A stretch of 64,000 nt of DNA. Origin: a virus. The notes under the pieces were generated by a model. It worked only from the letters and a program-made list of their open reading frames with translations, ran no database searches and had not been told where the DNA came from. Each line of letters begins with the position of its first letter. The first letter of the stretch is position 1. The position numbers and the translations under genes are program-made. Positions 60,099 through 62,490 of the stretch are shown here, piece by piece. The stretch is from positions 1 through 64,000 of IMG/VR virus record IMGVR_UViG_3300035670_000158; one strand, 5' to 3'.

Positions 60099-60133
60099 AA
60101 GGTATGATATAATAAATAAATATATTATACCTT
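60099..60133 (+). promoter_or_regulatory. hairpin with late promoter core as its loop, before HNH gene 1
   Basis: Thirteen-pair stem AAGGTATGATATA (60099-60111) / TATATTATACCTT (60121-60133, one G-U). The nine-base loop is ATAAATAAA, the late promoter core. The stem ends six bases before the HNH ATG. Confidence 0.75.
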
Positions 60134-60139
60134 AAGATT

Positions 60140-60493
60140 ATGCCATATAAAAACAAAGAGGACTATAAAAACTGGGAAAAGAGATATCGTAACGAATATT
60201 ATCAAAGACCAGAAACAAAACAAAGATTGTCAGAGCAATCTAAGTTGCGTAGAGAACGAAATAAAAGTTTTGTTCTAGATAAAATGATTCCTTGTATTGT
60301 ATGTGGTGAGAGTGACCCTATTGTTATTGATTTTCACCATTTAGATGAATCTCAAAAAGATAAAGGAATTTCTCAAATGATGCAAAGTAATTATTCTTTG
60401 CAAAAAATACAAGAAGAACTTGACAAATGTGTTTGTTTATGTTCTAATTGTCATAGGAGAGTTCACGCAGGAACTCTTACTTTGCGGGTATAG
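60140..60493 (+). CDS. HNH homing endonuclease 1
   Basis: 117 residues. HNH nuclease with zinc knuckles: CIVCGESDPIVIDFHHLDES (~53-72) and KCVCLCSNCHRRVHAGTL (~95-112), the HHxD ... N ... H order. Basic N-terminal part (NWEKRYRNEYYQRPETKQRL) for DNA contact. Paralogous to the gene at 61922. Its last ten bases are the first ten bases of tRNA-Gly, and its stop TAG is tRNA positions 8-10. A free-standing homing gene resident in the tRNA cluster. Confidence 0.88.
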   Translation: MPYKNKEDYKNWEKRYRNEYYQRPETKQRLSEQSKLRRERNKSFVLDKMIPCIVCGESDPIVIDFHHLDESQKDKGISQMMQSNYSLQKIQEELDKCVCLCSNCHRRVHAGTLTLRV

Positions 60494-60554
60494 TTTAGGG
60501 GTAAAATGCCATCCTTCCAAGTTGGAGTCACCGGTTCGATTCCGGTTACCCGCT
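60484..60554 (+). tRNA. tRNA-Gly (UCC)
   Basis: Acceptor GCGGGTA with TACCCGC, T8-A9, anticodon loop CTTCCAA (TCC), T arm ACCGG-TTCGATT-CCGGT. The anticodon stem CCATC/GTTGG has one T-T mismatch. The 5' end overlaps the 3' end of HNH gene 1. Confidence 0.88.
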
Positions 60555-60683
60555 CTGAACCTTTGGGTTCTTAAAATGTGGTTCTGGGTGGAATTCCCAG
60601 CGGTTCCGTTAGGGACTGTCCTTTGTAGGTTCGATACCTACATCTTCCTTATGGGAGATAAGAACGGCTATTGGAAACCACAA
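60555..60683 (+). other. non-coding stretch between tRNAs with one T-arm-like hairpin
   Basis: No convincing gene. A perfect T-arm-like hairpin GTAGG-TTCGATA-CCTAC lies at 60625-60641, and CTGGG ... CCCAG hairpin at about 60584-60600, but no matching acceptor or anticodon arm could be assembled. Probably a decayed tRNA or a stable small RNA. Confidence 0.4.
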
Positions 60684-60755
60684 CCTCTGGTAGTCTATTG
60701 GTAAGGACAGGCAGACAATGCACTTGGATACTAGGTTCGATTCCTAGACAGAGGA
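60684..60755 (+). pseudogene. tRNA-like sequence lacking an anticodon stem
   Basis: 72 bases with acceptor CCTCTGG/ACAGAGG (6 of 7 pairs), T8-A9, D stem GTCT/GGAC and perfect T arm CTAGG-TTCGATT-CCTAG. The middle (60709-60730) cannot form an anticodon arm with a T33. Either a decayed tRNA or a tRNA-like RNA. Confidence 0.5.
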
Positions 60756-60759
60756 CAAC

Positions 60760-61486: not shown

Positions 61487-61634
61487 AATCTCTGCGGTTG
61501 ACTTAAGTAAAGTTCTATTGCTAAATTCCGAAAAGAAGGTAAATAATCATGGAATCCTGACAAATAAGGATTTAGAATTTCAAGAGAACAGACGGAAACG
61601 CAAAGTTCGTAAACTTTACTTTGAAGAAAGATGA
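61386..61634 (+). CDS. small Cys-rich conserved protein
   Basis: 82 residues, MLSVRCKVCNKELSSTNKTQ then CCGCPN: four-Cys zinc ribbon (CxxC ... CxC). The following TVREDKISAVDLSKV is a pattern I associate with small cyanophage proteins. C-terminal basic tail RRKRKVRKLYFEER. Long overlap with the previous frame. ATGA overlap with the next gene. Confidence 0.6.
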   Translation: MLSVRCKVCNKELSSTNKTQCCGCPNMTTVREDKISAVDLSKVLLLNSEKKVNNHGILTNKDLEFQENRRKRKVRKLYFEER

Positions 61635-61858
61635 TTAACCTTCACCAACGATTCAATCATTATCTCAATACAGATAAAACAATCAATGAACAAGACGTGA
61701 ATGAGAAATTGATTAGTTATGGTTGGTTAGATAATGGTGTAGACATCACGGGATACTATCTCTTGACAGAGAACTTTGAATTGGTGTATGATATGCAAGA
61801 GAACTTCAAGCATAAGGTCCCACGGAGATCCTATGCTTGCCTCAAAACAAAAGGATAA
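61631..61858 (+). CDS. hypothetical protein
   Basis: 75 residues, MINLHQRFNHYLNTDKTINE ... SYGWLDNGVDITGYYLLTEN. Soluble, mixed alpha/beta, no motif recognised. Stop lies one base before the tRNA-Ser 5' fragment. Confidence 0.55.
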   Translation: MINLHQRFNHYLNTDKTINEQDVNEKLISYGWLDNGVDITGYYLLTENFELVYDMQENFKHKVPRRSYACLKTKG

Positions 61859-61859
61859 T

Positions 61860-61883
61860 GGAAAGGTGGTCGAGTGGTTGAAG
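61860..61883 (+). pseudogene. 5' fragment of a tRNA-Ser
   Basis: GGAAAGGTGGTCGAGTGG followed by TTGAAG is a standard tRNA-Ser 5' end (acceptor, T8-G9, D arm). The sequence then breaks off into the hairpin before HNH gene 2. No matching CCTTTCC 3' end was found downstream. Confidence 0.7.
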
Positions 61884-61920
61884 TTCTAATTTTTCTAAAT
61901 AAATTAGAACCATAAATAAT
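61883..61920 (+). promoter_or_regulatory. hairpin with late promoter core in its loop, before HNH gene 2
   Basis: Ten-pair stem GTTCTAATTT (61883-61892) / AAATTAGAAC (61901-61910). The loop TTCTAAAT plus the 3' arm give the core CTAAATAAA, and a second core CATAAATAAT (61911-61920) precedes ATG 61922. Confidence 0.72.
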
Positions 61921-61921
61921 T

Positions 61922-62311
61922 ATGCCATACAAGGATATAAAAAAGCAAAGAGAAGCGCAGCGACTCTGGGCTGAAAAACAATCTAGTGAGTTTAAAAAGG
62001 TAAAATACCAACGAGAACAAAACCACAAAAAGTTGATGGTTGAAAAACTAAATCAACTAAAATTAGAAAAAGGTTGTTGCGAATTGTGTGGTGAGTATCA
62101 TCCACCATGTTGTTTTGATTTTCATCATTTGGACAAAACAACTAAATCAAAAGAAGTATCTCAGTTAGCTGCAAAAGGATACAAATGGGACACAATCTTG
62201 ACTGAAGTTGAGAAGTGTGTTATGCTATGTGCTCCATGTCATCGTAAGATACATGCGGGACTGCTAACAATCTTGGAGAGTCAATCCGATTGGCGACGGA
62301 ACCTGTCTTGA
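61922..62311 (+). CDS. HNH homing endonuclease 2, ending inside tRNA-Ser
   Basis: 129 residues. HNH core CCELCGEYHPPCCFDFHHLD (~52-71) and KCVMLCAPCHRKIHAGLL (~99-116), aligned with HNH gene 1. Basic N-terminus (MPYKDIKKQREAQRLWAEKQ) also shared (MPYK). The last 37 bases (after HAGLLTI) are the 5' half of tRNA-Ser, and the stop codon TGA is the tRNA anticodon. The gene therefore cannot be separated from the tRNA without damaging one of them. Confidence 0.88.
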   Translation: MPYKDIKKQREAQRLWAEKQSSEFKKVKYQREQNHKKLMVEKLNQLKLEKGCCELCGEYHPPCCFDFHHLDKTTKSKEVSQLAAKGYKWDTILTEVEKCVMLCAPCHRKIHAGLLTILESQSDWRRNLS

Positions 62312-62361
62312 AAACAGTTGAGGTGTTAAAGCCCTTGGGCGTTCGACTCGCCCACTCTCCG
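62275..62361 (+). tRNA. tRNA-Ser (UGA)
   Basis: Acceptor GGAGAGT with ACTCTCC (7 pairs), D stem TCCG/CGGA, anticodon loop CTTGAAA (TGA), class II variable arm, T arm GGGCG-TTCGACT-CGCCC. Oddities: three bases instead of the usual U8-A/G9 before the D stem, and a C-T mismatch at the top of the anticodon stem. The 5' half is also HNH 2 coding sequence. Confidence 0.85.
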
Positions 62362-62362
62362 T

Positions 62363-62381: not shown

Positions 62382-62389
62382 TATTTCTT

Positions 62390-62463
62390 CGGGCATTAGC
62401 GCAGTTTGGTAGCGCGTTCCGTTTGGGGCGGAAAGGTCATAGGTTCAAATCCTATATGCCCGA
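62390..62463 (+). tRNA. tRNA-Pro (UGG)
   Basis: Acceptor CGGGCAT with ATGCCCG, D arm GCGC...GCGC, anticodon stem TTCCG/CGGAA around TTTGGGG (TGG), T arm ATAGG-TTCAAAT-CCTAT. Confidence 0.93.
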
Positions 62464-62490
62464 TATATAAAACAAGTAACTAAAACTCAA

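Follow-up and report, generated by a model that had tools for sequence, protein, structure and literature searches.

The HNH endonuclease gene near the right end of the sequence analyzed here is best explained as part of an intronless homing unit directed at a tRNA gene, with a complete, diverged replacement tRNA as its cargo, a reading to which we give a probability of roughly 70%. The sequence, hereafter the window, comprises 64,000 nucleotides and is part of a 71-kb record of a T4-like cyanophage (IMG/VR IMGVR_UViG_3300035670_000158). Between positions 61,860 and 62,464 it contains, in order, the 24-base 5' end of a tRNA-Ser, a hairpin, the HNH gene, tRNA-Ser(UGA) and tRNA-Pro. This arrangement, including a TGA that is both stop codon and anticodon, had been described in a first-pass annotation of the letters alone and is borne out by ARAGORN and the list of open reading frames. 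The features are as follows:

61631..61858, + strand: left-flank gene (MINLHQRF..., function unknown), outside the mobile unit; 89% identical in the relative L146
61860..61883, + strand: stub, GGAAAGGTGGTCGAGTGGTTGAAG, 24-nt 5' end of the resident tRNA-Ser(UGA) that was displaced; it breaks off in the D-loop
61883..61910, + strand: hairpin at the left end of the cassette, GTTCTAATTTTTCTAAATAAATTAGAAC, with a 10-bp stem and TAAATA in the loop
61911..61918, + strand: CATAAATA, T4-type late-promoter-like motif (NATAAATA)
61922..62311, + strand: HNH endonuclease gene, 129 aa (PHROG HNH families)
62275..62360, + strand: replacement tRNA-Ser(UGA), complete, of Sec-like architecture without U8 (ARAGORN)
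62309..62311, + strand: TGA, HNH stop codon and tRNA anticodon (incidental)
62389..62464, + strand: tRNA-Pro(UGG), probably transferred with the cassette

The mobile unit extends from 61,883 to about 62,361, and probably on to the tRNA-Pro (62,464). The HNH gene shares its last 37 bases with the tRNA-Ser(UGA), which ARAGORN places at 62,274-62,362 with the anticodon at 62,309-62,311. The protein matches PHROG HNH families 3106 (8.6e-26) and 2255 (1.2e-22) and contains the invariant residues CxxC, HH and CxxxCxxCH. Its matches in Pfam and in a PDB sequence search are weak, and the best match to a solved structure, the Gme HNH nicking endonuclease, reaches only E=0.04. Family searches of the Pfam/PHROG type gave no match to GIY-YIG, the family of SegB. 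The gene is a nuclease-domain ORF in neither an intron nor an intein, as is the case for free-standing endonucleases. A group I intron with a homing endonuclease was considered and rejected: the downstream tRNA is complete alone, the stub pairs only partially with the 3' acceptor strand, and Rfam found no intron family at the locus. The structure model has a pLDDT of 88.5, with residues 122-129 under 50, and the tail encoded within the tRNA (about the last 12 residues) is predicted to be disordered. The tRNA is strongly constrained (see below), and the sequence of this C terminus is simply a consequence of it.

The empty site is found in contig 3300013132_002272 (L146), which was recovered by a scan with the left-neighbor gene and whose flank is 85% identical to that of the window. 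No HNH gene follows in L146. Instead, an uninterrupted tRNA-Ser(UGA) starting GGAAAGGTGGTCGAGTGGTT / GGAAAGGTGGTCGAGTGGTTTATGG lies directly 3' of the left-flank gene at the same spot, followed directly by tRNA-Pro. The window tracks this tRNA-Ser for exactly 20 nt before passing into the cassette, and over its full length the stub matches (24/24) the 5' end of an intact tRNA-Ser(UGA) from another HNH-free relative, L165. The stub is therefore the broken resident gene. The resident 3' half (CGATGTGTAAGCATCCGTGGGTTCAAATCCTACCCTTTCC) is absent from the window. The cassette tRNA-Ser is 65% identical to the resident type, whereas the residents are 85-88% identical to that of L146; a diverged donor allele thus stands beside the HNH gene, as expected for homing. 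It is 92% identical to its counterpart in S-PM2 and 93% to that in Streptomyces phage TunaTartare, both of which lack an HNH gene at this place; hence the whole tRNA was replaced and the anticodon kept. The cassette tRNA is co-adapted from end to end: its acceptor stem is perfectly paired (GGAGAGT with ACTCTCC), and the stub pairs incompletely with the 3' strand of that stem.

The first-pass annotation had proposed that the HNH unit displaced the resident tRNA-Ser and supplies a replacement, and that an HNH-free relative should contain an uninterrupted tRNA-Ser starting GGAAAGGTGGTCG; L146 is such a relative and supports the proposal. As counter-evidence it had named HNH-free relatives that already carry the new 5' half, with the stub occurring independently. 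The GGAGxGxCAATCCG 5' half does occur in HNH-free phages (S-PM2, S-RIM32, DSL-LC03, S-CREM1 and TunaTartare), where it belongs to a complete tRNA of this same type, but the stub is seen only with an HNH gene. A further locus, L009, has the same HNH gene, the same tRNA-Ser and a nearly identical tRNA-Pro, with a right flank from another phage background (91% identical to HNH-free L161). Since L009 shares the tRNA-Pro despite its foreign right flank, the transferred block probably includes this gene; the tRNA-Pro genes of the window and L146 are 58% identical.

The cassette tRNA-Ser is 86/86 identical in the window, L009 and DSL-LC02, where the adjoining HNH DNA is 81-86% identical, and is therefore under strong constraint. 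It belongs to a tRNA-Ser type widespread in phages (CAAxCCGAT, without U8), found at 62,275-62,360 and in L003, L005, L007 and L008. The joints that had been noted as odd do exist, both the missing U8 and the mismatched pair that tops the anticodon stem; they are shared by this phage type and do not result from the junction. The best Rfam model for the type is tRNA-Sec, with 45.7 bits in the window and 49.7-51.8 bits in S-PM2, TunaTartare and DSL-LC03, three phages that score above the cutoff of 47 with anticodon UGA. The window tRNA is not assigned to tRNA-Sec (RF01852), as it falls below this gathering cutoff and its anticodon is UGA (reading Ser UCA), not UCA. The cassette tRNA-Ser of Streptomyces phage Forrest has the same architecture with anticodon GCU and also scores best as tRNA-Sec; the resident tRNA-Sers score as ordinary tRNAs.

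The coincidence of stop codon and anticodon, put forward earlier as a feature of the cassette, is not conserved. Within the same clade the HNH stop either precedes the tRNA or falls inside it, at about positions 3-5, 23-25, 36-38 or 46-48, and we reject a functional meaning since the position is variable and the tRNA-encoded tail is predicted to be disordered. The tRNA-Ser after Ser-clade HNH genes (L013, L021, L025, L028-L035) often starts GGTGAG, the TGA at positions 3-5 being the HNH stop. Where no HNH gene is present, the tRNA-Ser begins with GGAAAGG or a similar sequence, except at a scar locus, L077.

Our analysis reveals that such units recur in independent phages. The survey covered 103 distinct HNH genes: relatives from two viral-contig scans and nine loci from annotated phage genomes. 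Scanning their upstream regions identified six truncated 5' tRNA ends with 17-18 matches out of 18, and shuffled upstream regions (n=309) never gave more than 15. These ends occur in L022 (the twin of the window), L034 and L013 (Ser), L077 and L079 (Gly), and Forrest (Ser-GCT), and the stub has the anticodon of the downstream tRNA at 6/6 loci, the downstream tRNA of L034, which is truncated by the contig end, having been identified by eye. Shorter and less secure stubs (7-12 nt) are present in L009, L075, L084 and L090, and many cassettes lack a stub; a stub-like match in L088 was rejected as part of a complete but uncalled tRNA. Occupied and empty versions of the same site, the pattern expected of homing, were found for window/L146, L009/L161, L090/L160 and Forrest/Jada. 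The left flank of Forrest is 100% identical to that of HNH-free Jada up to a break at GGAAGTGTGGCTGAGTCCGGTTT, the anticodon is GCT on both sides, and Jada and Gilson, close relatives of Forrest, contain an uninterrupted tRNA-Ser(GCT) at the identical spot. The Forrest HNH (gp150) is unrelated to that of the window, and identity between the tRNAs of Forrest and Jada is 53%. In Jada (L268:2420-2773), a PDDEXK endonuclease gene starts right after the tRNA-Ser(GCT) that Forrest has replaced.

Of the HNH genes that have a tRNA close downstream, 67/79 run at least 5 nt into it, compared with 41/171 other ORFs (p=5e-20), a comparison set that itself includes several HNH genes. Overlap alone was rejected as proof, since other small genes also run into tRNAs. 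Felix O1, too, was withdrawn as clean proof of replacement because the same tRNA-Ile allele occurs in HNH-free phages; its HNH gene can also be read as a simple insertion before an existing tRNA-Ile allele. At this Felixounavirus site, between tRNA-Met and CCAATTTC (L263, L264, L272-L277), there are four tRNA-Ile(GAU) alleles with or without HNH: two tRNA types are seen without it and one both with and without, and the HNH matches occur with the CTGTGAAAGC type. A comparison of SP-107 with Henu11 reveals an HNH gene inserted between tRNAs, none of which is replaced. In L083 (1400-1850), a Val-clade HNH gene lies between an intact tRNA-Val upstream and a second tRNA-Val downstream, of which just the 3' end (AATCCCTCATCACCC) is present.

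The HNH proteins also tend to stay with one anticodon. In a tree of 84 of them, the tRNA labels need 24 changes, compared with 54.9 when shuffled. The Ser-UGA clade is associated with tRNA-Ser(UGA) in 22/22 cases (seven labels were set by hand where ARAGORN made no call), and the Gly-UCC clade precedes tRNA-Gly(UCC) in 13/13. The tRNAs of the Ser clade are of several very different types, always with UGA. The large MSGK... clade is not faithful to one anticodon and may behave differently. About 40-110 nt before the MSGK-type HNH start, L100, L110, L124, L128 and others share a sequence resembling tRNA-Asn (CCCATCGACCGAGC...GTTAATCGG...GATGGG); it is conserved, its T-loop is unusual, and ARAGORN does not call it.

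The window contains a second HNH unit, missed in the first-pass annotation, whose gene overlaps a tRNA-Gly by 10 nt:

60099..60133, + strand: hairpin preceding the second HNH gene, its loop containing AATAAATA; in L065, the matching contig copy, the stem is 13 bp long
60140..60493, + strand: second HNH gene, 117 aa, of the tRNA-Gly-associated clade (ORF list, PHROG)
60484..60555, + strand: tRNA-Gly(UCC) (ARAGORN); T8-A9-G10 is the second HNH stop codon

Beyond it, 60,560-60,757 contains tRNA-like stretches with GGTTCGATACC and GGTTCGATTCC T-arms and no ARAGORN call, one of which recurs after MSGK HNH genes in L133-L142.

The left end of the cassette (GTTCTAAT...) is sharp and recurs in 11 related cassettes, bordered on the left by sequence that is unrelated from one phage to another. 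The recipient tRNA-Ser of L013 breaks off in the T-loop, where a 6-nt microhomology (AGTTCG) links it to a scrap of donor flank that is intact in L016. From these sequences, the left junction can be read as illegitimate or microhomology-mediated repair, and the right side as recombination beyond the tRNA; if trimming affected the left break end alone, the cut in L013 would lie at or beyond the T-loop. The scar locus L077 has kept both cassette ends and the cassette tRNA and has lost the HNH gene, so loss after invasion also occurs and leaves the new tRNA in place. The NATAAATA motif is present within 70 nt upstream of 53/103 HNH genes, compared with 3.5% of random 70-mers from the same loci, and a late-promoter-like element lies inside a predicted hairpin in 39/81 HNH upstream regions. 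Both recall the hairpin and late-promoter control known for the T4 homing endonucleases I-TevI, SegB and MobE (PMC2988022).

In our reading, a mobile HNH gene joined end to end to a whole tRNA-Ser(UGA) entered this lineage by replacing the resident gene and left a 24-nt scar. We envisage that, in a mixed infection, the HNH protein would cut or nick an HNH-free tRNA-Ser gene, and the break would be repaired from the HNH-carrying genome, using homology on the right and short or no homology inside the broken tRNA on the left. The diverged cassette tRNA would restore the lost anticodon and should escape recognition by the nuclease. The sequences themselves show the replacement, its recurrence in independent phages, the retention of the anticodon, the exact conservation of the cassette tRNA and the loss of an HNH gene with the new tRNA left in place. 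From the homing paradigm, in which the recipient turns resistant once its cleavage sequence is replaced (PMC12724721), we infer cleavage of the resident tRNA gene by the HNH protein and sparing of the cassette tRNA; the position of the cut and the benefit of restoring the tRNA are likewise inferred.

The most serious rival, which we nevertheless consider unlikely, is that the tRNA-Ser/tRNA-Pro block was swapped by ordinary recombination or by selection (for codon use or escape from tRNA-cutting host defenses) with the HNH gene as a passenger. The tRNA-Pro has changed as well, the cassette-type tRNA-Ser occurs without HNH, and phage tRNAs counter tRNA-targeting defenses (PMC13096335). Against a passenger stand stubs adjoining HNH units of matching anticodon at six loci, HNH clades faithful to one anticodon, and left junctions that fall inside the resident tRNA gene in independent cases. 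An ancestor with two tRNA-Ser(UGA) genes, in which an HNH gene entered the first and a deletion reached the second with nothing brought in, would also yield a stub, an HNH gene and an intact tRNA. We rejected this improbable history since none of 83 tRNA-Ser(UGA) loci has a tandem pair within 600 nt, L146 has the old type only, and L009 has the new type only in another background. Replacement of the 5' half alone with the resident 3' half retained, as the first-pass annotation proposed by analogy with integrative islands that restore tRNA ends, fits the old stub and a new 5' half that continues the HNH reading frame, but is very improbable and is refuted at this locus by L146, in that the resident 3' half is gone too, the present one matches the HNH-free S-PM2 type and pairs with the new 5' strand rather than with the stub, and the unit has no integrase.

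Islands and prophages that target tRNA genes use an integrase and short att identity. As in those elements, a working tRNA is restored here after insertion; unlike them, the unit exchanges the whole tRNA. An integrative element was rejected, as the unit holds only HNH, tRNA-Ser and tRNA-Pro, and the old and new tRNAs differ throughout. The closer resemblance is to the free-standing homing endonucleases of T4-like phages (SegF, SegG, MobE, and F-CphI of cyanophage S-PM2), which likewise combine a small nuclease gene beside its presumed target, polymorphic presence, a co-converted diverged target allele, an upstream hairpin and a late-promoter motif (PMC2988022, PMC12724721). The unit differs from these in having a tRNA gene as its presumed target, an ORF that ends inside the replacement tRNA and an old 5' stump. 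SegB of T4/T6 is likewise encoded in a tRNA cluster and is a proven homing endonuclease of the tRNA region that cuts inside tRNA genes at the motif RAWTSGAAC and drives inheritance of the region (PMC13096335, citing Brok-Volchanskaya 2008). We observe that reverse-complementing this motif gives a T-arm sequence. SegB is a GIY-YIG enzyme and the window protein an HNH enzyme; SegB is reported to have no tRNA-isotype preference (PMC13096335), in contrast to the two HNH clades that stay with a single anticodon here. For SegB, neither an ORF overlapping a tRNA nor a swapped tRNA was found described in the literature examined. Nor did the literature searched yield a description of the present HNH-tRNA arrangement, which does not prove its absence; we regard the unit as a variant form of intronless homing rather than a category of its own.

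Our analysis suggests a concrete cause for the fast turnover of phage tRNA genes and the abundance of HNH genes in tRNA arrays, namely nucleases that target tRNA genes and pay with a replacement of the same anticodon. The logic, and the logic only, is that of engineered cleave-and-rescue or home-and-rescue drives, which are CRISPR-based, operate in insects and combine a nuclease against a gene with a diverged, cut-resistant copy in one unit (PMC7951863, PMC7968924). The chances seem to us evenly balanced that phage tRNA arrays host widespread natural elements of this kind, in which a one-anticodon HNH gene and a diverged replacement tRNA spread by destroying the resident tRNA gene, drive tRNA-gene turnover and leave a new tRNA on loss. 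If so, there would be a simple test separating tRNA genes that are drive cargo from those that are codon-usage or anti-defense adaptations, and the HNH-tRNA units would be the natural counterpart of the engineered cleave-and-rescue drives.
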